Source: Thermoplasmata archaeon (GTDB lineage: Archaea; Thermoplasmatota; Thermoplasmata; UBA10834). Taken from it: a DNA stretch of 8,728 nt. The stretch covers positions 1-8,728 of the forward strand of contig JALOTO010000053.1 in assembly GCA_025457845.1 (NCBI GenBank), in the 5' to 3' direction. The position numbers and the translations under genes were made by a program. Within the stretch, counting starts at the first letter, position 1. The number at the start of each line of letters is the position of its first letter. The notes beneath the pieces were generated by a model that was given only the letters and a program-made list of their open reading frames with translations, searched no databases and was not told where the DNA came from. Shown here one piece after another: positions 2 through 8,728 of the stretch.

Positions 2-1324
2 GCGGCCTTCGGCAGCGAGGGCCAGCTGGGGGTCGTCACATCGGTCACTCTCCAGGTCGACGCGAGGCCTGCGGTCGCAAGGCCCCACCTCGTGCTCTTC
101 GACGACACCAGGGAGGCGCTGGCCTTCGCCAAGGTGCTCACCGCGAGCAAGGTCGCCCCCGCACACATCCTCTTCGAGAGCGCGAACAGGCTCGTCATCG
201 CAAACCAGCTCATGGGCCAGCAGCACCTCAGGCCGGCCAACGCGGTGCTCGTGAGCGTTGAGGGCGAGGAGTCCGAGAAGGCCTTCGCCGATTTCATGAA
301 GGGGACCGGCCTCTCCGAGGAGAAGGAGTACCTCGCGCGGCTCCTCTGGAACGAGCGCTTCTTCCCCATGAAGGTGAGGCGGCTCGGCCCGGGCATGATG
401 GGGACCGAGATCGTCATGCCGAGCGGACAGCTGATGGACTCGATCGCCGCCGTAAGGAAGCTCTGCTCCAAGCTCGCTATAGACCCGATGTTCGAGGTCC
501 ACTTCCTGGCGGACGGGCGGTCCCTCCTCCTGTGCTTCTTCACGGTCGACCAGGGCAACACGATGGGCTACACCCTCGCGTCGTTCGAGTCGCTCCTGCT
601 CAGCAGGCTGCTGATCGACATGGGCGGGAAGCCCTACTCGATGGGCATCTGGAACATGCCGTTCTCCGATGCCGAGGACCGCTCGCACATGAAGCTGGTG
701 CGGGACGCGAAGACCAGGCTCGACCCGAAGGGCGTGATGAACTCAGGGAAGTTCTTCTACCTTTCCGGGAGGTTCGGACCTCTCGGCTCCGCCGTCCTCC
801 ACCCGAGGATCATGCGCCCGCTCCTCAGGACCGTCATCGCGTTCTCCCCGCTCTCGACCAAGCTGATCAGGTTCGTCGGCGAGTTCGCGAGGAGGCGGCT
901 CAGACCGGAGAGCAGGACGGACATACTCAGGACCGCGGACGAGTGCGCCATGTGCGGCGCCTGCGTTCCGGTGTGCCCGGCGTACCTCATGCTCGGCGAC
1001 GAGAGGGTGACCGCGAGGGGCAAGCTCCAGACCGCGAAGGCCATCTCTGGCGGGATGCCGCTGTCCAAGGAACATGCCCACAGGACCTTCCTCTGCATGA
1101 GGTGCAAGGCCTGCGAGCAGGTCTGCCAGTCCAAGCTCGACCTCATCCCGATCTACGAGAAGCTCGAGGCGCAGCTCGAACGCGCCCACGGGAGGGACGC
1201 GAAGGAGATCGAGGCGTTCGTGAGGGCGGCAGAGGCCTCCCCGGAGTACGACGAGCTGGTCTGCCGCGGCCTGGTGCTCGGGGCTCCAAGGCACGGGACG
1301 GGGGGTGTGAAGCCGGATGTATGA
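2..1324 (+). CDS. FAD-linked oxidase (GlcD-like) fused to a two-cluster ferredoxin domain, 5' partial
   Basis: This is a flavin dehydrogenase of the FAD-linked oxidase family (GlcD / D-lactate dehydrogenase type), likely cytoplasmic, passing electrons from an unknown 2-hydroxyacid-like substrate to iron-sulfur clusters. The frame is open to the window edge. The first codons (nt 11-58) read GSEGQLGVVTSVTLQV, the family signature at the end of the FAD-binding domain, so the gene begins upstream and the in-frame GTG at 92 is not the start. The FAD oxidase C-terminal domain follows, ending with LDPKGVMNSGKFF near nt 720-760. Two C-x2-C-x2-C-x3-C motifs (Cys codons from nt 944 and from nt 1094) indicate two [4Fe-4S] clusters. 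The cysteine-rich CCG domains usual in GlcF are absent. The family's SGEHGIG motif appears to be replaced by YSMGIWN, so the substrate is uncertain. The stop overlaps the next gene by 8 bases, which suggests translational coupling. Confidence 0.85.
   Translation, partial: AAFGSEGQLGVVTSVTLQVDARPAVARPHLVLFDDTREALAFAKVLTASKVAPAHILFESANRLVIANQLMGQQHLRPANAVLVSVEGEESEKAFADFMKGTGLSEEKEYLARLLWNERFFPMKVRRLGPGMMGTEIVMPSGQLMDSIAAVRKLCSKLAIDPMFEVHFLADGRSLLLCFFTVDQGNTMGYTLASFESLLLSRLLIDMGGKPYSMGIWNMPFSDAEDRSHMKLVRDAKTRLDPKGVMNSGKFFYLSGRFGPLGSAVLHPRIMRPLLRTVIAFSPLSTKLIRFVGEFARRRLRPESRTDILRTADECAMCGACVPVCPAYLMLGDERVTARGKLQTAKAISGGMPLSKEHAHRTFLCMRCKACEQVCQSKLDLIPIYEKLEAQLERAHGRDAKEIEAFVRAAEASPEYDELVCRGLVLGAPRHGTGGVKPDV
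1301..1307 (+). promoter_or_regulatory. Ribosome binding site for the gene at 1317
   Basis: GGGGGTG differs by one base from the archaeal consensus GGAGGTG and lies 9 bases before the ATG at 1317, inside the end of the upstream gene. It supports the ATG at 1317 over the next in-frame ATG at 1341. Confidence 0.55.
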
Positions 1325-2702
1325 GCGGTACCACATCTCGATGAAGCCGGTCCCGAGCAGGGCCAACCCAGTCCCCAAGTTCGTCATCACGAGGGCGTCC
1401 AACTGCGTCAACTGCGGGAAGTGCGAGAAGGCCTGCATCTTCGGTGTGCACGAACGCAGCAAGAAGGACCCGCGCGAGATGGCCGACCCCCTCAGCCACC
1501 TCTGCAAGAACTGCTTCAGGTGCATAGCGGACTGCCCGCAGAGGGCCCTCACCATGTCCGTAGGCCCGGAGTTCCGCGCCCTCGGCAGGGGCCTGTGGAC
1601 CTCCCAGAGGATCGCGACGGTCTGGGGCGAGGCCGAGACCGGCAAGATCCCGGTCCTGGGCGCGGGCTACAGGGGGCCTTTCGCGGGACCCAACTTCGAC
1701 GGCATGTGGACGGACATGTCCGAGATAGTGAGGCCGACAAGGGACGGCATCCACGGCAGGGAGTCCATCTCGACGGGCGTGGACGTCGGCGCGAAGCCCC
1801 TCTCTCTCGAGTTCGACGGCGAGGGCGGGCTCGTCACGCGCACCCCAGATGTGATCGAGCTGCCGGTCCCGGCCGTGCTTGACATCTCCAGGATGAGGAC
1901 GACGACGGAGAACACGGTCACGGGCTTCGCCCTGGCGGCCAAGGAGCTCGGCACCCTCATGTTCATCCCGTACGGGATCATCTCGTTCAACATACTCGAG
2001 GCAGGCAGGGGGCACATAGTCCCCGTCTACCCTGACACGGTCAAGCCCGACGGGATCAAGCTCCCCGAGGGGACGAGGATGGCCGAGGTCCACATGGGCC
2101 CCGGCTGGAGGGAGACCGCCAGGGACTTCGCCTCTCAGCATCCGGACGTGGTCCTCTCCATCAGGGTCCGCGCCGGGCAGGGGATCGAGAGGAAGGTCGT
2201 GGAGCTGGCCCAGGACGGCATCGCGGTCGTCCACCTGGACTACGACCGTCAGGGGATGGAGGAGGGCTCGGACGCCAGGCACGCCATGAACTCGCTCCGT
2301 TCCATCCACAAGGCGCTGGTCTCCGAGGGGATCAGGGACAGGGTCACCATCATCTCCGGGGGCGGCGTGGCCGCGGCCGAGCACGTCCCGAAGACCATCA
2401 TCTGCGGGGCCGACGTGGTCGCGGTGGAGCGCGCGCTGATCATCGCGCTGGAGTGCCGGAACTGCATCACGTGCTCGCGGGGCTCGTGCCCGATCAACCT
2501 CCAGGCGGCGGAGCCCGAGTGGGTCCAGGGGAGGGTCTGCAACCTGATAGGCGCATGGCGCGACCAGATGCTCGAGATGATGGGCGCGATGGGCATACGC
2601 GAGGTGCGCAGGCTCAGGGGCGAGGTGGGCCGCGCGATATTCTTCGACGACCTCGAGAGGGACATGATGGCAGCGCTCAAGGGGGGCGAGAAGCATGGCT
2701 AG
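1317..2702 (+). CDS. Divergent glutamate synthase FMN-domain-like iron-sulfur protein
   Basis: A 461-residue paralog of the next gene. The N-terminus has two ferredoxin-type motifs (Cys30/33/36/40 and Cys63/66/69/73). A shared block around WTSQRIATVWGEAETGKIP matches WSAETIMATWKMAETGRPIP in the neighbour, followed by a TIM-barrel-like region. The C-terminus keeps a GltS-type cluster motif, C380-x5-C386-x4-C391, with an extra Cys383, which is the classical [3Fe-4S] spacing. It keeps ISGGGVAAAEHV, the equivalent of the phosphate-binding GG loop. It lacks the counterparts of GGMSFG, GEGG, QGAKPG and GGTGAAP that the neighbour has. I infer a non-catalytic or altered electron-transfer or scaffold partner of the 503-residue paralog; a distinct enzyme activity remains possible. 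It overlaps genes on both sides by 8 bases. Family membership is firm; function is uncertain. Confidence 0.82.
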   Translation: MYERYHISMKPVPSRANPVPKFVITRASNCVNCGKCEKACIFGVHERSKKDPREMADPLSHLCKNCFRCIADCPQRALTMSVGPEFRALGRGLWTSQRIATVWGEAETGKIPVLGAGYRGPFAGPNFDGMWTDMSEIVRPTRDGIHGRESISTGVDVGAKPLSLEFDGEGGLVTRTPDVIELPVPAVLDISRMRTTTENTVTGFALAAKELGTLMFIPYGIISFNILEAGRGHIVPVYPDTVKPDGIKLPEGTRMAEVHMGPGWRETARDFASQHPDVVLSIRVRAGQGIERKVVELAQDGIAVVHLDYDRQGMEEGSDARHAMNSLRSIHKALVSEGIRDRVTIISGGGVAAAEHVPKTIICGADVVAVERALIIALECRNCITCSRGSCPINLQAAEPEWVQGRVCNLIGAWRDQMLEMMGAMGIREVRRLRGEVGRAIFFDDLERDMMAALKGGEKHG

Positions 2703-4206
2703 GAAGGCCGACGCGTACTCCGACCAGTTCCCCGAGACAGCCCTGGCCCCCGCGGACAGGCTCACGTTCATGAACAGGTTCTCGGTCACGAGGGCGGAGA
2801 CCTGCATCTCCTGCGGCATGTGCGAGGCGCTCTGCCCGTACGGCGTCCACAGGAGGATCGAGGGGCACGCCAAGATCCTCCCGCCGGACGACAGGAAGTG
2901 CATCGGCCCGTCGTGCGAGGTCAACTACTTCTTCTGCGTCGCCAACTGCCCGACGACCTCCCTCTCGGTGAAGGCCAGCGACAACTTCGCGAGCATGGGA
3001 GACCCGCGCTGGAGCGCGGAGACCATCATGGCCACATGGAAGATGGCCGAGACGGGGAGGCCCATCCCGCTGGACCACCCAGGGAACGTGGGCGCCTCGG
3101 GCGGAGGCTTCGACAAGCTCCACTTCAGGCTGCCGGGGAAGGCGGCGAAGGGCGACCCGTCGCGCATCTCGACCGCGATCGACCTCAACAGGCGGGGCGC
3201 AGGCACGCGGATCAGGATCCCCATCCCGGTCTACGGCGGCGGCATGTCGTTCGGCTCCGTCAGCGTGTACACGATGATGGCGAGGGCGAAGGCCGCGAAG
3301 GCCCTGGGGACGTTCATATGCACGGGCGAGGGCGGGTACCCCGAGCAGCTCGTGCCCTTCAAGGACCATGTCATAACCCAGATCGCGACGGGACTGTTCG
3401 GCGTGCGCGAGGAGACCCTCCAGCGCGCCCCGATCCTCGAGTTCAAGTACGCCCAGGGGGCCAAGCCTGGCCTCGGCGGGCACCTGCTCGCGGACAAGAA
3501 CACGCCCGACGTCGCGAGGATGAGGGAGGCGGTGCCGTACACCAGCCTCTTCTCCCCGTTCCCGTTCCACAGCGTCTACTCCGTCGAGGACCACAAGAAG
3601 CACCTCGACTGGGCGGCCGCGATCAACCCGAGGGCACTCCTGTCGGTGAAGGTCTCGACCCCGAACGACGTCGAGATGGTCAGTGTGGGGAGCTACTACG
3701 CCGGGGCGCACATAGTCCACCTGGACGGTGGCTACGGCGGCACAGGGGCCGCCCCCGAGATCGCCAAGAAGAACATCGCGATGCCAATTGAGTACGCCAT
3801 CCCGAAGGTCCACAGGTTCCTCGAGGCCGAGGGCATCAGGGACCAGGTCACGCTCGTCGCGAGCGGCGGCCTCAGGACCGCGATGGATGTCGCGAAGTCC
3901 ATCGCGCTCGGGGCCGACGGCGCGGTCATAGGGACGTCCGACCTCGTCGCGGTCGGCTGCGTGCGCTGCGGCAACTGCGAGAGCGGCCGCGGCTGCCCGA
4001 GGGGCATAGCGACGACAGACCCCGAGCTCCAGAAGATCACGGACTCGGACTGGGGCGCACAGAGGATAGTCAACATGTACACCGCGTGGAGGCTCCAGTG
4101 GTGCGAGCTCCTCGACTCGTTCGGAATGAACGACATCCAGCAGCTCCGTGGCAGGACCGACCTCCTCAGGCACGAGGACCACCCAGACAAGGAGGTCGTG
4201 AGATGA
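2695..4206 (+). CDS. gltB: Archaeal glutamate synthase, FMN-binding subunit with ferredoxin domain
   Basis: Likely catalyses the synthase half-reaction: 2-oxoglutarate plus ammonia plus two electrons gives glutamate, on FMN. The 503 residues begin with a ferredoxin region: Cys37/40/43/47, then an unusual C69-x4-C74-x6-C81-x3-C85-P. The GltS barrel follows with PVYGGGMSFGS (FMN loop), CTGEGG, AQGAKPGLGGHL (the lysine of the 2-oxoglutarate site), SPFPFHSVYSVED, LDGGYGGTGAAP and VASGGLRTAMDV (FMN phosphate). The cluster motif is C422-x2-C425-x2-C428-x5-C434-P, so a fourth cysteine is present beside the usual three, and the last gap is x5 instead of x4. The standalone domain with fused ferredoxin is the archaeal form; bacterial GltB carries glutaminase and GXGXG on the same chain, and here those lie in the next gene. 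It overlaps the upstream gene by 8 bases and the downstream gene by 4 (ATGA). Confidence 0.9.
   Translation: MARKADAYSDQFPETALAPADRLTFMNRFSVTRAETCISCGMCEALCPYGVHRRIEGHAKILPPDDRKCIGPSCEVNYFFCVANCPTTSLSVKASDNFASMGDPRWSAETIMATWKMAETGRPIPLDHPGNVGASGGGFDKLHFRLPGKAAKGDPSRISTAIDLNRRGAGTRIRIPIPVYGGGMSFGSVSVYTMMARAKAAKALGTFICTGEGGYPEQLVPFKDHVITQIATGLFGVREETLQRAPILEFKYAQGAKPGLGGHLLADKNTPDVARMREAVPYTSLFSPFPFHSVYSVEDHKKHLDWAAAINPRALLSVKVSTPNDVEMVSVGSYYAGAHIVHLDGGYGGTGAAPEIAKKNIAMPIEYAIPKVHRFLEAEGIRDQVTLVASGGLRTAMDVAKSIALGADGAVIGTSDLVAVGCVRCGNCESGRGCPRGIATTDPELQKITDSDWGAQRIVNMYTAWRLQWCELLDSFGMNDIQQLRGRTDLLRHEDHPDKEVVR
4191..4196 (+). promoter_or_regulatory. Ribosome binding site fixing the start of the glutaminase gene
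   Basis: GGAGGT is a strong SD six bases before the ATG at 4203, within the end of the preceding gene. It decides for 4203 against an in-frame extension starting at 4086 and against the later ATG at 4278. Confidence 0.75.
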
Positions 4207-6839
4207 ACAACGATGCCAGGACGCTCACGGAGGCGAGGGCGTGGATGCAGGCCCACTCGCGCTCGACCGGCACACACATGCAGGAGGCCGAGGGGGGTTG
4301 CGGCGTCGTCGGCATCGTCAGCACAGCCCCCGTCGCGGGCAGGCACATATTCGAGCCGCTCATCCAGATGCACAACCGCGGGAACGGGAAGGGCGGCGGC
4401 ATAGCGGCGGTCGGCCTCGACGCCGACCAGCTCGGAGTCACCCAGCGCATCCTCGAGCAGGACTACCTCCTCCAGGTGGCCTACCTCAAGCCCGAGGTCA
4501 GGGACCAGCTCGAGGACGAGTTCATCAAGCCCAACTACCGCGTCGAGCGCAAGTACAAGGTCGAGACCAGCACGGACCCGGCCCTGCTGAAGTCCCTGGA
4601 AGTCACCCCTCCAGAGGTCTGGCGGTACTTCTGCAGGGCGAAGAAGGACGCCCTCGAGGCCTTCGTCGCCAAGAGGAAGCTCGGGACGATGGACCCGAGG
4701 AAGGCAGAGGACGAGTTCGTCTACCAGACCAGCTTCGCGATCAACGTCAAGTACTACGCATCGTCCGGGATGTCCGCGTTCGTGATGTCCCACGGGCGCA
4801 ACATGCTCGTGATGAAGATCGTCGGGTACGCGGAGGACGTCATAAGGTACTACAAGCTCGACGAGATGCGCGCCCACATATGGATTGGGCACCAGCGCTA
4901 CCCGACCAAGGGCCGCGTGTGGCACCCCGGAGGGGCCCACCCGTTCGTCGGGCTCGACGAGGCGCTCGTCCACAACGGCGACTTCGCGAACTACCACACC
5001 GTCTCGGAGTACCTCGGTCAGAGGAACATCGTCCCGCTCTTCCTGACGGACACGGAGGTCTCGGTCCTGCTCTTCGACCTGCTCAACAGGACCTATGGGT
5101 ACCCGCTGGAGTACATAATCGAGTCGCTCGCCCCGACGACGGAGAGGGACTTCCACCTCCTGCCGGAGGCGAAGCGGAGGATCTACCGTGCGATCCAGGC
5201 CACTCACATCCATGGCTCGCCTGACGGCCCCTGGCTCTTCATCATAGGAAGGAACTGCTTCTACGACAACAAGCTCCAGCTCATGGGGATCACGGACACC
5301 TCGATGCTCAGGCCGCAGGTGTTCGCCCTCGTCGACGGGGATGTCCAGATAGGGCTCATCGCCTCGGAGAAGCAGGCGATCGACTCAGTGCTCTCGAGCA
5401 TCTCGCGGGAGATGCCGACCGTCCCGAAGTACGCTGACAGGTACTGGAACGCGAGGGGAGGGAGCCACACGGACGGGGGCGCGTTCATATTGAGCCTCTA
5501 CCCGGAGGCGGGCGCCCCGGGGAAGAAGAGGCTCATCTGCACGAACAAGTTCGGCACCTCGGTCACGGTCCCGCAGACGGACTGGAGCCGGGACGACGAC
5601 ATCGCCCTCGGCAAGCCGTTCCCGAAGGCCCCCAGGAAGTCGGCCCTCGGAGAGGAGCTCGCGGCCAGGAAGGACCCGGAGGCTTCCTTCAACCTCCTGG
5701 TGAAGCAGCTGGGGGAGGTCTCGGGCGAGGAACTCAACTCAGTGTTCTCGTACCTCGTGAAGCTCGCGGGCAAGAGCGACGTGGGGATGGATGAGTCCGT
5801 CGCATTGCTCACTCTGATGCTGGACAGGCGCTATCCGACGGGGAAGTACAGGCGTAGCAGGCTCGTTCAGAAGGCGAACGAGTGCCTTGACGAGATCCTA
5901 CGCTCTGCGCCGCGGGTCGACAAGGCCGACAAGTCGCTCTACTCGCTGGTGGACCTGAAGTCAAGGGAGAAGCTCAAGGGACCGTCCTCACCGTACTCGA
6001 AGCTCGCCATCGACTGCGCAGGCTTCCCGATGGAAGGGGAGGAGGGCGTTTCGTTCGTGATCAAGAGGGCCAGGGAGCTCGGCTGGACCAGGGTCCTCGC
6101 TTTCGCGGCCCACGGCCAGAGGTTCTTCGGTTGCAGCCTTGGGCCGAAGTCGAAGGGCTTCAGGATCGATGCGTACGGCAGTCCTGGCGACTATCTCGCC
6201 TCCGGCCTCGACGGCGCAGAGGTACATGTGCACACGAACGGCCAGGACCAGCTCGGCCAGATACTCGCGAACGGCAAGTTCGTGGTCTACGGCGACGTCG
6301 GCCAGACGTTCCTGTACGGGGCGAAGGGCGGCGAGACCTACGTCATGGGAAACGCCGCCGGCAGGCCCCTCATCAACGCGGTCGGCAAGCCCAAGGTCGT
6401 CATCAACGGGACGTGCCTGGACTATCTTGCGGAATCGTTCATGGCGGGCAACCCGCTCTACGGCGGGGGGTTCGTCGTCCTCAACGGCATCGCGTTCGAC
6501 CACACCGGCTCCCCGTACGAGCTCCCGGAACCGTATCCCGGAGGGAACCTGTTCTCCCTCGCCTCCGGCGGCGCGATATACGTCCGCGACCCGAGGAGGC
6601 TCATAGGGGAGGACCAGCTCAACGGGGGCAGGATAACCAAGCTCACCGAGGCGGACTGGAACCTGATACTGCCGTACCTCAAGGAGAACGAGAGGCTCTT
6701 CGGCTTCTCGGTAGATGACTTCCTCCTGAAGGTCGACGGAGTCAGGAAGGCCCCCGACGCAGTATACAGGAAGATCGAGCCCGCCCCGAGGGTCACGCTG
6801 GCGGGCAAGGTGCAGGAACAGGACGTCGGCGGGGACTAG
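4203..6839 (+). CDS. Glutamate synthase glutaminase domain fused to GXGXG domain
   Basis: 878 residues. The N-terminal part (about 33-420) is a class II glutamine amidotransferase that releases ammonia from glutamine. Cys33 in EGGCGVVGIVS is the expected nucleophile, exposed after removal of a 32-residue propeptide. Other expected active-site positions are GHQRYPT (Arg232), HNGDFANY (Asn258, Gly259) and TDTEV (Asp283). A helical, lysine-rich linker (about 510-600) leads to a C-terminal GXGXG beta-helix domain (about 640-810). This is recognised by repeated glycine motifs such as GSPGDYLASGLDGAEV, GDVGQTFLYGAKGGETYVMGNAAG and a final GGG. In bacterial GltB the FMN barrel lies between these domains; here it is absent and encoded just upstream, so the two proteins presumably assemble. 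The start at 4203 overlaps the previous stop as ATGA, with SD GGAGGT. No T-rich terminator is evident after the stop. Confidence 0.88.
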   Translation: MNNDARTLTEARAWMQAHSRSTGTHMQEAEGGCGVVGIVSTAPVAGRHIFEPLIQMHNRGNGKGGGIAAVGLDADQLGVTQRILEQDYLLQVAYLKPEVRDQLEDEFIKPNYRVERKYKVETSTDPALLKSLEVTPPEVWRYFCRAKKDALEAFVAKRKLGTMDPRKAEDEFVYQTSFAINVKYYASSGMSAFVMSHGRNMLVMKIVGYAEDVIRYYKLDEMRAHIWIGHQRYPTKGRVWHPGGAHPFVGLDEALVHNGDFANYHTVSEYLGQRNIVPLFLTDTEVSVLLFDLLNRTYGYPLEYIIESLAPTTERDFHLLPEAKRRIYRAIQATHIHGSPDGPWLFIIGRNCFYDNKLQLMGITDTSMLRPQVFALVDGDVQIGLIASEKQAIDSVLSSISREMPTVPKYADRYWNARGGSHTDGGAFILSLYPEAGAPGKKRLICTNKFGTSVTVPQTDWSRDDDIALGKPFPKAPRKSALGEELAARKDPEASFNLLVKQLGEVSGEELNSVFSYLVKLAGKSDVGMDESVALLTLMLDRRYPTGKYRRSRLVQKANECLDEILRSAPRVDKADKSLYSLVDLKSREKLKGPSSPYSKLAIDCAGFPMEGEEGVSFVIKRARELGWTRVLAFAAHGQRFFGCSLGPKSKGFRIDAYGSPGDYLASGLDGAEVHVHTNGQDQLGQILANGKFVVYGDVGQTFLYGAKGGETYVMGNAAGRPLINAVGKPKVVINGTCLDYLAESFMAGNPLYGGGFVVLNGIAFDHTGSPYELPEPYPGGNLFSLASGGAIYVRDPRRLIGEDQLNGGRITKLTEADWNLILPYLKENERLFGFSVDDFLLKVDGVRKAPDAVYRKIEPAPRVTLAGKVQEQDVGGD

Positions 6840-6904
6840 GCCGGGCGGGTGGCGTTTCAGTCATCCGCACGCGGTCTTGGACAATATTCGGACTGCGCTG
6901 TCGA

Positions 6905-6931
6905 GAACCGCCGGGTATTCGAACCAGAACC
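6905..6931. repeat. Three GAACC direct repeats upstream of the promoter
   Basis: GAACC occurs at 6905-6909, 6921-6925 and 6927-6931. The middle copy is part of the near-palindrome GGTATTCGAACC (6914-6925), which has TTCGAA at its centre. The group is framed by TCGAG (6901-6905) and CTCGA (6931-6935), an inverted pair. Its place just before the TATA-like boxes fits an activator or BRE-adjacent regulator site, but the repeats are short and could be chance. Confidence 0.3.
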
Positions 6932-6935
6932 TCGA

Positions 6936-6966
6936 TTTAATACGATGTCAGTAGTCTTAAATACGA
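6936..6966 (+). promoter_or_regulatory. Tandem archaeal TATA-like promoter elements for the nfn genes
   Basis: TTTAATACGA (6936-6945) and TTAAATACGA (6957-6966) stand out as A/T islands in very GC-rich DNA, and each resembles an archaeal TATA box. They differ at one base and start 21 bases apart. With the usual distance of about 25 bases from box to start, the downstream box would start transcription near 6985 and the upstream one near 6964. This gives the nfn pair its own promoter, separate from the upstream glutamate synthase genes. Confidence 0.6.
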
Positions 6967-6989
6967 ACTTACGAATGCAGCGCCCAGAG

Positions 6990-7014
6990 GCATCGCGGGC
7001 GCGGCCCGGGATGC
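6990..7014 (+). other. Leader hairpin 1 (10 bp with one G-G mismatch)
   Basis: GCATC (6990-6994) pairs with GATGC (7010-7014) and CGGGC (6996-7000) pairs with GCCCG (7004-7008). The two stems are separated by a single G6995-G7009 mismatch, and the loop is GCG (7001-7003). The hairpin begins about where the downstream TATA-like box would place the 5' end of the mRNA. The pairing is read directly; a regulatory role is inference. Confidence 0.5.
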
Positions 7015-7043
7015 ACCGCGGCCGCACCTTCTGCGGCGGCGGT
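7015..7043 (+). other. Leader hairpin 2 (11 bp with one G-G mismatch)
   Basis: ACCGC (7015-7019) pairs with GCGGT (7039-7043) and GCCGCA (7021-7026) pairs with TGCGGC (7032-7037). A single G7020-G7038 mismatch separates them and the loop is CCTTC. It starts at the base right after hairpin 1 and ends 8 bases before the SD core, so the two could stack end to end and leave the ribosome site free. A role in translation control is inference. Confidence 0.5.
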
Positions 7044-7050
7044 CGGCAAA

Positions 7051-7055
7051 GGGTG
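7051..7055 (+). promoter_or_regulatory. Ribosome binding site for the NfnA-like gene
   Basis: GGGTG lies five bases before the ATG at 7061, the only good start for the conserved reading frame. It is complementary, through GGTGC, to GCACC at 7013-7017 and at 7024-7028 in the leader hairpins. Confidence 0.5.
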
Positions 7056-7060
7056 CTCAC

Positions 7061-7888
7061 ATGTACGAGATAGTGAAGGCGGAGAAGCTCAACCCCGACG
7101 TCACAAGGCTCGAGATCAAGGCCCCGCACATAGCGAAGAGGGCCAAGGCCGGGCAGTTCGTGATGATAACGGTGGACGAGCACGGCGAGAGGGTCCCGCT
7201 CACCATGGCGGACATCTCTCCTGAGAAGGGGACTGTGACTATCGTTGCCCAGGAGGTCGGCAAGACCACCAGGCACATGGGCAAGCTGAAGGCCGGAGAC
7301 AAGGTGTTCAGCCTCGTGGGCCCGCTGGGCCTCCCGACCGAGCTGCACAAGTTCGGCACCATCGTCTGCATCGGCGGCGGCATCGGCCTCGCGCTGATGT
7401 ACCCGGTCGTCAAGGCGCTGAAGGAAGCTGGCAACACGACCGTCAACATCATAGGCGCCAGGAACGAGAAGCTCCTGATCTACGAGGACGAGATCAAGTC
7501 AGTGAGCGACGAGTTCTACCTGTGCACCGACGACGGCTCGAAGGGCCACAAGGGCTTCGTCAGCGACATACTGAAGAAGCTCATCGCGGACGGCAGGAAG
7601 ATCGACATGGTCTACGCCGTCGGCCCGATAATCATGATGAAGGTCATCGCGAACATAACGAAGCCGTACGGGATCAAGACGATTGTCAGCCTGAACCCGA
7701 TCATGGTCGACGGGACCGGCATGTGCGGCTCGTGCAGGGTCATCGTCAAGGGCGAGACCAAGTTCGGCTGCGTCGACGGGCCCGAGTTCGACGGCCACGA
7801 TGTGGACTTCGAGAACCTCACGGCCAGGAACAAGAGGTACCTCGCGGAGGAGCAGATCTCCCTGAGGCGTTTCATGGGGGGTAAGTAG
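7061..7888 (+). CDS. nfnA: NfnA/SudB-like ferredoxin-NAD(P) oxidoreductase small subunit
   Basis: 275 residues, the usual family length. It is a cytoplasmic flavoprotein of the ferredoxin-NADP reductase fold that pairs with the NfnB/SudA subunit. In known Nfn enzymes the pair couples NADH, NADPH and ferredoxin by electron bifurcation. The FAD site is RVPLTMAD (44-51). The nucleotide site is CIGGGIGLALMYPVVKALK, with Gly105-107; many relatives have GGGVGVAP here. The [2Fe-2S] motif is MVDGTGMCGSC...FGCVDGPEFDGH with Cys222, Cys225 and Cys237; an aspartate in this region is the unusual fourth ligand in studied Nfn proteins, and Asp217 is the candidate. It has its own promoter region upstream and is followed with no gap by the large subunit. 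Sulfide dehydrogenase, the original name in Pyrococcus, or a dihydroorotate dehydrogenase-type electron transfer subunit are alternatives; the neighbour favours Nfn. Confidence 0.88.
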   Translation: MYEIVKAEKLNPDVTRLEIKAPHIAKRAKAGQFVMITVDEHGERVPLTMADISPEKGTVTIVAQEVGKTTRHMGKLKAGDKVFSLVGPLGLPTELHKFGTIVCIGGGIGLALMYPVVKALKEAGNTTVNIIGARNEKLLIYEDEIKSVSDEFYLCTDDGSKGHKGFVSDILKKLIADGRKIDMVYAVGPIIMMKVIANITKPYGIKTIVSLNPIMVDGTGMCGSCRVIVKGETKFGCVDGPEFDGHDVDFENLTARNKRYLAEEQISLRRFMGGK

Positions 7889-8728
7889 ATGGCAGAGGAA
7901 GCTGGCAAGAAGGAGCCGAGGAAGCTCGTCCCGAAGAAGTACCCGATGCCCGAGCAGCCTCCGCAGGAGCGCGTGCACAACTTCAAGGAGGTCCCGCTCG
8001 GACAGGACGCCCAGACCATCATACTCGAGGCCAAGCGCTGCCTGCAGTGCAAGCAGACGCCAGGCAGGGAGATTTGCATGAACGGGTGCCCGGTCGAGAT
8101 CGAGATACCGAGGTTCATCAAGGCTGTCCAGGACGGCGACTTCGCCCAGGCGATCAAGATCCTGAGGGAGAAGCAGAACCTCCCGGCGGTCTGCGGCCGC
8201 GTCTGCCCCTACGAGGTGCAGTGCGAGGGCAAGTGCATCGTCGGGAAGAAGAACGAGCCCGTCGGCATAGGCCGCATCGAGCGGTTCCTGGCCGACTGGG
8301 AGAGGAACGAGCAGAGGCACGGGCACGTGGAGGCCGTCGCCCCGACCGGCAAGAAGGTGGCCGTCGTCGGCGCTGGCCCCGCGGGCCTGACCGTCGCGGG
8401 CGACATGGCCAAGCTCGGCCACAAGGTCTCGATGTTCGAGGCCCTGCACTCACCCGGCGGCGTGCTCGTCTACGGCATCCCTGAGTTCAGGCTGCCCAAG
8501 GTCATAGTCCAGGCCGAGGTCGACTACATCAAGAAGATGGGCGTCGACCTGAAGACCGACTACGTGGTGGGCAAGCTCGACACCGTCGACGACCTCCTGA
8601 AGGAGTACGACGCGGTGTTCGTCGCCACCGGAGCGGGCCTTCCCAACTGGACCAACCTCCCGGGCGAGAACCTGAACGGCATAATGTCCGCGAACGAGTT
8701 CCTGACCAGGACCAACCTGATGAAGTCC
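7889..8728 (+). CDS. nfnB: NfnB/SudA (GltA, glutamate synthase beta-like) large subunit, 3' partial
   Basis: The ATG follows the previous stop directly, with GGGGGT at about 7876-7882 as SD. The first 280 codons are seen and no stop occurs before the window end; the family is about 470 residues. The N-terminal Fe-S domain has C51-x2-C54-x8-C63-x3-C67-P and C102-x3-C106-x5-C112-x3-C116, for two [4Fe-4S] clusters. IGRIERFLADW leads into the FAD-binding GAGPAG at 161-166, then PGGVLVYGIPEFRLPK, and the visible part ends in a conserved PGENLNGIMSANEFLTR block. The family takes electrons from NAD(P)H and passes them to ferredoxin via the partner or, as the beta subunit of bacterial glutamate synthase, to the FMN subunit. 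Both roles fit this neighbourhood. The loop between the second and third cysteine (8 residues) is longer than in many relatives. Confidence 0.9.
   Translation, partial: MAEEAGKKEPRKLVPKKYPMPEQPPQERVHNFKEVPLGQDAQTIILEAKRCLQCKQTPGREICMNGCPVEIEIPRFIKAVQDGDFAQAIKILREKQNLPAVCGRVCPYEVQCEGKCIVGKKNEPVGIGRIERFLADWERNEQRHGHVEAVAPTGKKVAVVGAGPAGLTVAGDMAKLGHKVSMFEALHSPGGVLVYGIPEFRLPKVIVQAEVDYIKKMGVDLKTDYVVGKLDTVDDLLKEYDAVFVATGAGLPNWTNLPGENLNGIMSANEFLTRTNLMKS

Follow-up and report, generated by a model that had tools for sequence, protein, structure and literature searches.

We analyzed a stretch of 8,728 nucleotides from a Thermoplasmata archaeon (contig JALOTO010000053.1; the whole stretch is hereafter called the window), which bears six same-strand genes of interest, g1–g6, the first four of which appear to specify an unusual version of glutamate synthase (GOGAT). 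The evidence throughout is drawn from sequence, models and gene context. The g1–g4 genes form a same-strand chain with mutual overlaps of 8, 8 and 4 nucleotides in their open reading frame (ORF) coordinates; the Cys motifs of g1, g2 and g3 allow up to eight iron–sulfur (Fe–S) clusters, and two flavins are expected, namely flavin adenine dinucleotide (FAD) on g1 and flavin mononucleotide (FMN) on g3. An earlier note, made from the letters of this stretch, had described four genes overlapping end to end with up to eight clusters and two flavins, and the ORFs, domains and Cys motifs bear this out. The features of the four genes are:

2..1324, + strand: g1, FAD-linked oxidase (D-lactate dehydrogenase/LctD/AGPS-like) with a C-terminal 2x[4Fe-4S] domain; the 5′ end lies beyond the window edge
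632..655, + strand: g1 P-Y-S-M-G-I-W-N, i.e., the conserved P-Y-x2-G-x-W at the place of E-H-G in relatives (alignment)
944..976, + strand: g1 [4Fe-4S] motif I, CxxCxxCxxxC
1094..1126, + strand: g1 [4Fe-4S] motif II, CxxCxxCxxxC
1317..2702, + strand: g2, degenerate GltS-barrel protein with an N-terminal 2x[4Fe-4S] ferredoxin domain (ATG at 1317)
1404..1436, + strand: g2 C30/33/36/40 (alignment)
1503..1535, + strand: g2 C63/66/69/73 (alignment)
1719..1763, + strand: g2 SEIVRPTRDGIHGRE motif, present in 142/143 stand-alone g2 rows and 0/118 fused ones
2454..2489, + strand: g2 C-terminal GltS-type Cys motif, C380/383/386/391
2695..4206, + strand: g3, FMN synthase subunit of glutamate synthase; ferredoxin domain at the N-terminus (ATG at 2695)
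2803..2949, + strand: g3 ferredoxin Cys, C37/40/43/47 and C69/74/81/85
3241..3258, + strand: g3 GMSFGS motif
3958..3996, + strand: g3 GltS-type cluster Cys after the barrel, C422/425/428/434 (aligned to solved GltS)
4203..6839, + strand: g4, probable class-II glutaminase containing a large insertion, joined to a GXGXG domain (ATG at 4203)
4299..4301, + strand: g4 Cys33 of GGCGVVGI (motif by eye; weak alignment piece of about 1 bit)
6153..6602, + strand: g4 GXGXG domain (PF01493, 40.5 bits against a cut-off of 32.5)

Gene order, genome-level co-occurrence, natural fusions and the conservation of Cys and site residues together make it quite probable, in our estimate, that g1–g4 encode one GOGAT complex for ammonium assimilation in which g1 replaces GltD as the electron inlet; we infer its assembly, the electron path and the direction of flow, and our confidence in the complex does not extend to the reductant of g1. 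The four-gene order, which was looked for in relatives, recurs across phyla. Of the window and 80 further loci, which represent the best 80 of at least 545 g2 relatives, 38 have a g1-family gene, and 31, 32 and 35 have MvhD-like, MetV and MetF genes, respectively (family names were checked with Pfam on loci L055 and L058; other neighbor families were named by our own hidden Markov models and by eye). In the window's order, represented by genome G001, 19 of 21 genomes have g2, and exactly these 19 have a g1 orthologue (E<1e-200); the other two have distant g1 paralogues only. Likewise, in a second phylum, that of G011, 11 of 196 genomes possess g2 and the same 11 possess g1, two in pieces, with a single distant g1-like gene occurring without g2, in G412. 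Such matched occurrence argues that the grouping of g1 with g2 is not due to chance. Across the phylum of G001, a g2-like gene was recovered in 16 of 194 genomes, with an adjacent g1 (E<1e-260) in 4 and no g1 orthologue found in the remaining 12, for which few candidates were scored per genome; in the phylum of G010, 55 of 198 genomes have g2, and 3 of those 55 also have g1 orthologues as separate genes. Absences in these phylum-wide searches are not firm, as scoring covered the top 6 or 8 first-look candidates per genome. The earlier note had suggested checking whether the oxidase gene is unlinked in relatives: g1 was found linked, co-occurring with g2 across archaeal genomes. Its pairing of the oxidase with the glutamate synthase is upheld both by this genome-by-genome tracking in archaea and by four-part polypeptides in bacteria.

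The latter were recovered in six further genomes in the phylum of G010, outside the above 55, where g1 is joined to the rest: five frames of 2528–2544 amino acids correspond to g1-g2-g3-g4 and one of 1924 amino acids to g1-g2-g3. A protein search with one of the fused proteins yielded 240 relatives, and 118 of the 120 that were listed comprise the four domains arranged as g1-g2-g3-g4. The few source names that come with an organism are Syntrophaceae and Thermodesulfobacteriota, and a g1-g2-g3-g4 polypeptide of ~2,530 amino acids is encoded by some of the latter. In chain order, the Fe–S domain of g1 is followed by the ferredoxin domain of g2. By pattern matching, the 118 listed fusions keep the two Fe–S motifs of g1 (115 and 118), its PY..G.W motif (114) and an R with FxPM (104), along with the g2 ferredoxin motifs (101 and 115) and the g3 GltS cluster (118). 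They largely lack the g3 ferredoxin Cys, having 1–5 Cys between the g2 end and the GMS motif, before which stand-alone g3 proteins have 8 or more; the C-terminal Cys motif of g2 is also missing in the aligned fused sequences. The glutaminase Cys is internal in the four-domain fusion (..PSDCGVAAIVS.., L177–L182), and therefore either the chain is cut there or the glutaminase site works unusually, which suggests a giant chain that self-cleaves or carries an unusual glutaminase. Fusions of g2 with g3 also occur (L048, L162–L168). Thus, on genomic evidence, the joint function of g1–g4 is well supported by the co-occurrence across genomes and the four-domain fusions.

The g1 protein combines FAD-oxidase_C and Fer4 dicluster domains (Pfam), and its full-length homologues are mostly about 610–690 amino acids long. 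A fold comparison via the full-length homologue of L001, which is 57% identical to the part of g1 in the window, indicates that the FAD-binding fold of the D-2-hydroxyacid dehydrogenases (LctD/LDHD/D2HGDH) fits this family. Among the 52 of 73 g1 sequences left after near-duplicate removal, the eight cluster Cys are conserved in 52 of 52, beyond what chance would give, and the P, Y, G and W of the P-Y-x2-G-x-W motif in 51 of the 51 that have a residue there; its Y occupies the His position in the alignment with LctD. No GltD-type reductase lies within the g1–g4 unit, in which g1 is the FAD-oxidase_C/LctD-like member. The listed matches of g1–g6 include no FrhB/FdhB-like coenzyme F420 family, the rest of the genome not having been searched, and the ferredoxin part of g3 gives one sub-cut-off match to FpoI. 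As regards the distant g1-like gene of G412, the stretch 6977–10050 of its locus L183 codes for this FAD/Fe–S protein followed by a 398-amino-acid protein that contains Cys, and nothing of a glutamate synthase was seen within that stretch; the g1-like protein is a relative with another role.

The g3 protein unites a ferredoxin dicluster with a Glu_synthase domain (PF01645, 63–369, 297 bits), whose barrel aligns with solved GltS. The columns of its GMS.GS, GEGG, QGAKPG, SPFP and GGTGA motifs, which we assume to play their usual roles in the FMN synthase domain, are at least 97% conserved among 62 stand-alone g3 proteins, and GMSFGS is presumably part of the FMN/2-oxoglutarate site. Compared to solved GltS, the cluster motif of g3 holds one Cys and one residue more. 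In g4, the glutaminase part shows PurF/GlmS-type matches, and we presume Cys33 to be the catalytic Cys once a 32-amino-acid leader is removed.

The g2 protein, by comparison, departs from the earlier notion of two like GltS-family subunits. Behind its ferredoxin dicluster, it matches the C-terminal part of Glu_synthase only (profile 259–368 of 369, 55 bits); in a comparison of 74 g2 proteins of 430–560 amino acids with 62 g3 proteins of 470–600 amino acids, 121 of the 140 conserved g3 barrel positions are lost in g2, which also fails the test for the above five FMN synthase motifs. On account of these lost positions, we rejected g2 and g3 as two like GltS units; g2 is no second GltS catalytic unit and is predicted to bind no FMN and to act as a conduit or scaffold. 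Perhaps, it is the counterpart of the GltS central domain: Glu_syn_central scores 18.1 bits on the window g2 (cut-off 22.8), 18 of 27 g2 rows match at E<=1 in a lax scan and the g2 part of L100 reaches 36.1 bits. This likeness is not decisive because part of g3 matches the model as well, over a shorter span (15.3 bits for the window's g3, 25.8 for that of L055). For its ferredoxin domain we assume a two-cluster pattern pairing C30/33/36 with C73 and C63/66/69 with C40. All twelve Cys are present in 72 of 89 g2 rows; among the 17 rows with changes, eleven (L086–L096) lack the same cluster and the C-terminal Cys, three (L034, L036 and L041) lack C-terminal Cys, L017 and L042 have a single Cys changed, and L085 has lost most of them. 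The SEIVRPTRDGIHGRE motif of g2, which overlaps a low-confidence part of the g2 model, may form a partner interface.

In the proposed complex, g4 would split glutamine and carry the GXGXG domain, and g3 would hold the FMN and the GltS cluster and reduce 2-iminoglutarate to glutamate. The pseudo-barrel of g2 would lack a usable FMN site, its ferredoxin domain carrying electrons and its conserved loop docking to a partner, and g1, with FAD and two [4Fe-4S] clusters, would serve as the electron inlet in the place of GltD. Electrons would accordingly run from the reductant to the FAD of g1, through the two [4Fe-4S] clusters of g1 and the two of g2 to the g3 clusters, and via FMN to 2-iminoglutarate.

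Locus L058 of ANME-1 (anaerobic methanotrophic archaea) runs from an ammonium transporter gene through P-II, a gene on the reverse strand, GlnA, g1, g2, g3 and g4 to CarB and CarA; the fused loci adjoin GlnA in 5/6 and CarAB in 4/6 cases, and of the 45 loci viewed in the phylum of G010, most with short flanks, 8 showed GlnA. The adjoining GlnA, CarAB, ammonium transporter and P-II genes fit a role in the glutamine synthetase–GOGAT pathway. No second full-length GltS was seen in the window's order, where the extra PF01645 matches are weak or come from short frames (G599, G600, G606, G611). In the same order, a glutamate dehydrogenase-family gene lies about 10–17 kb from g2 in G598, G603, G610, G599, G004, G605 and G003.

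Several observations weigh against this reading, some of them against g1 as an obligatory part. In one bacterial clade, MvhD-like and/or MetV-MetF genes stand upstream of g2 instead of g1; of the 55 g2 genomes in the phylum of G010, 45 were viewed upstream (30 + 15 loci), and 42 have MvhD/MetVF there and 3 have g1. In a g2 tree (143 of 160 rows after near-duplicate removal, rows of <330 amino acids or <250 bits excluded; quick IQ-TREE with support from the Shimodaira–Hasegawa-like approximate likelihood ratio test only; midpoint root), the 70 MvhD-like/MetV/MetF rows and L077 form one clade with a support of 99, placed inside the g1-type rows with branch supports of 83–90. One inlet exchange is the simplest reading of this tree, its direction being left unsettled by those supports and the midpoint root. 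Not one of the 143 rows has g1 and MvhD/MetVF together in a fetched locus, many flanks being only about 1.5 kb, and L077 has neither upstream. Between C36 and C40 of g2, all 70 of the 70 MvhD-type rows have a loop of 4–5 residues, and 58 of the 59 g1-type rows have one of 3, the exception being L020, which has g1 and yet the longer loop; a tie between loop length and partner type is suggestive only and is not independent evidence because both differ along one tree branch. The MvhD-like protein belongs to the Pfam family FlpD; across 59 sequences, three of its Cys never vary and a fourth is kept in at least 90%. The FlpD/MvhD family relays electrons between proteins. The MvhD-like gene stands alone in 17 of the 70 rows, for which reason we rejected the idea that MetVF always accompanies the bacterial version; in 18 of the 70, no MvhD-like gene was seen, but there the flank or contig may stop short of it. 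Within L103–L176, which are bacterial, MvhD-like, MetV-like and MetF genes lie directly upstream of the core in one clade; in L169 and L170, this set is followed by a second MvhD-like gene immediately before g2. One-carbon metabolism may be linked to glutamate synthesis in these loci. Long HdrA/GltD-like proteins are encoded near the core in L022, L059, L061, L069 and L075, and also in L170, L171 and L174; that of L059 contains Fer4_20 and pyridine nucleotide reductase domains, and it is possible that such proteins donate to the MvhD-like protein.

Twelve Thermoplasmatota rows also lack g1. Eleven of these (L086–L096, which at a guess may be Marine Group II) have g2-g3-g4, with a g2 that is devoid of C30, C33, C36 and C73 and keeps C40, C63, C66 and C69, so that, given the ligand pattern assumed above, one whole cluster would be lost and the other kept; their g3 has lost its ferredoxin domain and, in 11 of 11, has no CxxCxxC and at most two Cys before the GMS motif. 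The twelfth, G054 (L085/L100), displays a g2-g3 fusion without ferredoxin domain matches, followed by g4 and two genes for electron-transfer flavoprotein (ETF), the second of which, in L100 (1128–8313), has an N-terminal ferredoxin domain; these are perhaps another kind of inlet. As the core exists without g1, GOGAT chemistry in itself does not require g1, and, with the MvhD-like/MetV-MetF replacement, these rows show that the oxidase is not obligatory. Other points concern the remaining parts of the scheme: the C-terminal g2 Cys are gone in L034, L036 and L041, which are g1-type rows; GATase_6 scores 26 bits on g4 against a cut-off of 27, i.e., weakly by Pfam's measure (27.1 in the fused protein L177); and L182 has neither GlnA nor CarAB beside the fusion. 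A glutamate dehydrogenase-family match (E<=1e-38) in 16 of the 21 genomes of the window's order means that the g1–g4 enzyme need not be the only source of glutamate. Finally, the core is followed by a GltD-like g6 in the window and in 7/7 close-clade loci with enough sequence, and the above HdrA/GltD-like proteins lie a few genes downstream of the core in the first five of the loci named for them and near it in the other three; these genes leave room for routes linked to reduced nicotinamide adenine dinucleotide (phosphate), NAD(P)H.

For the reductant of g1, we lean toward a small carboxylate over a soluble electron carrier. If so, g1 would oxidize a 2-hydroxyacid-like carboxylate, e.g., 2-hydroxyglutarate, which would also yield 2-oxoglutarate, and thereby directly drive glutamate formation, an account that we favor while holding it to be no more than possible. 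The fold fits, but the GDGNxH and EHG motifs, which we take to be the metal motif and the catalytic His of the D-2-hydroxyacid dehydrogenases, were found in none of the 52 stand-alone g1 proteins and none of the 120 listed fused-type proteins; the oxidation of a hydroxyacid-like substrate is thus not sustained in the form in which it was first put, and the missing motifs add to the points against. The same loss speaks for g1 as a relay flavoprotein that takes its electrons from a soluble carrier, be it ferredoxin, F420H2 or another protein, and puts the old substrate site to another use, and so does its replacement in one bacterial clade by a gene of the FlpD/MvhD-like relay family. This option, likewise no more than possible, ranks just behind the carboxylate; against it, invariant g1 residues outside the FAD domain suggest a real small-molecule site. 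ETF is, moreover, an unlikely carrier in the window's order, where ETF_alpha (PF00766) matches occur in 0 of 21 genomes, the control giving a signal in 10 of 14, and we rejected it there as the donor to g1. Putting the inlets together, we tentatively propose an exchangeable-inlet core that would be driven directly by small-carboxylate oxidation on g1, in place of NAD(P)H, ferredoxin or F420H2, in archaea and some bacteria, and by an MvhD-like relay or MetVF in another bacterial clade. Both types of donor would be weak reductants, near −200 mV, still sufficient for glutamate formation.

Two further accounts would demote g1, and one of them turns on the genes that follow the core in the window:

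7061..7888, + strand: g5, NfnA/SudB-like FAD/NAD-binding subunit; a neighbor, probably a separate unit
7889..8728, + strand: g6, NfnB/SudA/GltD-like subunit; a neighbor, with its 3′ end beyond the window

The g5 gene starts 221 nucleotides after the end of g4, with g6 directly after it at 7889, and both give Nfn/Sud/GltD-like matches (Pfam, NCBIfam). The intervening 6840–7060 contains, by eye, two TTTAATACG/CTTAAATACG-like stretches, a possible archaeal promoter, and g5–g6 may hence be a separate transcript. The GltD-like g6 with g5, as an Nfn/SudBA-like pair, could be the real donor of an NADPH-linked glutamate synthase to which g1 is accessory. The proximity of the pair to g4, the matches of g6 to gltA/GltD-like models, the presence of the pair after the core in 7/7 loci (L001–L003, L005, L008, L010 and L012, in L002 about 2.5 kb away) and a g6-family gene further along in L016 and five bacterial loci are in keeping with this. 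It is nonetheless improbable in our judgment: g5 scores above the cut-off of PRK06222 (sulfide/dihydroorotate dehydrogenase-like), which makes the pair look like Nfn/Sud; no such pair was observed next to the core in loci of ANME-1, Methanocellaceae, Methanomassiliicoccales-type archaea and bacteria; and the fusion partner is g1. That g1–g4 are a conserved operon of independent enzymes, with g1 only co-regulated with glutamate synthase, is very improbable; operons can persist without physical coupling, but the 118 listed single chains hold the four domains in one order, with the Fe–S domain of g1 followed by the ferredoxin domain of g2.

If this is true, a different inlet would change the wiring of nitrogen assimilation to the energy metabolism of uncultured anaerobes, and weak donors would spare low-potential electrons where such organisms are starved of energy. 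The inlet variant is spread over ANME-1, Thermoplasmata, Methanomassiliicoccales-type archaea and relatives of sulfate reducers, and the 2,530-amino-acid single-chain version allows the inlet question to be tested with one gene. Our literature searches, in sources available in part, did not find an oxidase-type inlet or a g1–g4 fusion described, an absence from searches that is no proof.

Several known systems offer parallels. The established reductants of glutamate synthase, a key route for ammonium into amino acids when it is scarce, are NAD(P)H and ferredoxin; the canonical NADPH-dependent GltS has the wire FAD–2[4Fe-4S]–[3Fe-4S]–FMN; and GltB has as its central domain a truncated barrel, possibly descended from the FMN barrel (PMC8097209). 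A swapped inlet has been proposed before from gene context, for the putative F420-dependent FGltS of methanogens and ANME (PMC3448663, PMC3087415, PMC9012536); there the input is an FrhB/FdhB-like F420 protein, and here it is an FAD oxidase. The g1 protein differs from LctD of the lactate dehydrogenase/Etf complex (7qh2) in lacking EHG and GDGNxH and in having a fused 2x[4Fe-4S] domain, and no ETF alpha was found in the 21 genomes of the window's order. The FlpD/MvhD-like, MetV-like and MetF genes upstream of g2 in one bacterial clade recall the MetVF/MvhD methylenetetrahydrofolate reductase systems; unlike those, they adjoin a glutamate synthase core, and the MvhD-like gene can do so alone. 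Like GltB/GltD (and the eukaryotic fused NADH form), the g1–g4 system has a probable glutaminase, an FMN synthase with the GltS cluster, a GXGXG domain, and an FAD protein with two [4Fe-4S] clusters that would feed a wire to FMN; unlike it, the inlet is an LctD-type FAD oxidase, the synthase is split and g2 has its own ferredoxin domain. In the fused form, g1 would bring FAD and two clusters and g2 two more, ahead of the GltS cluster and FMN, which matches the logic of the canonical enzyme with another inlet.
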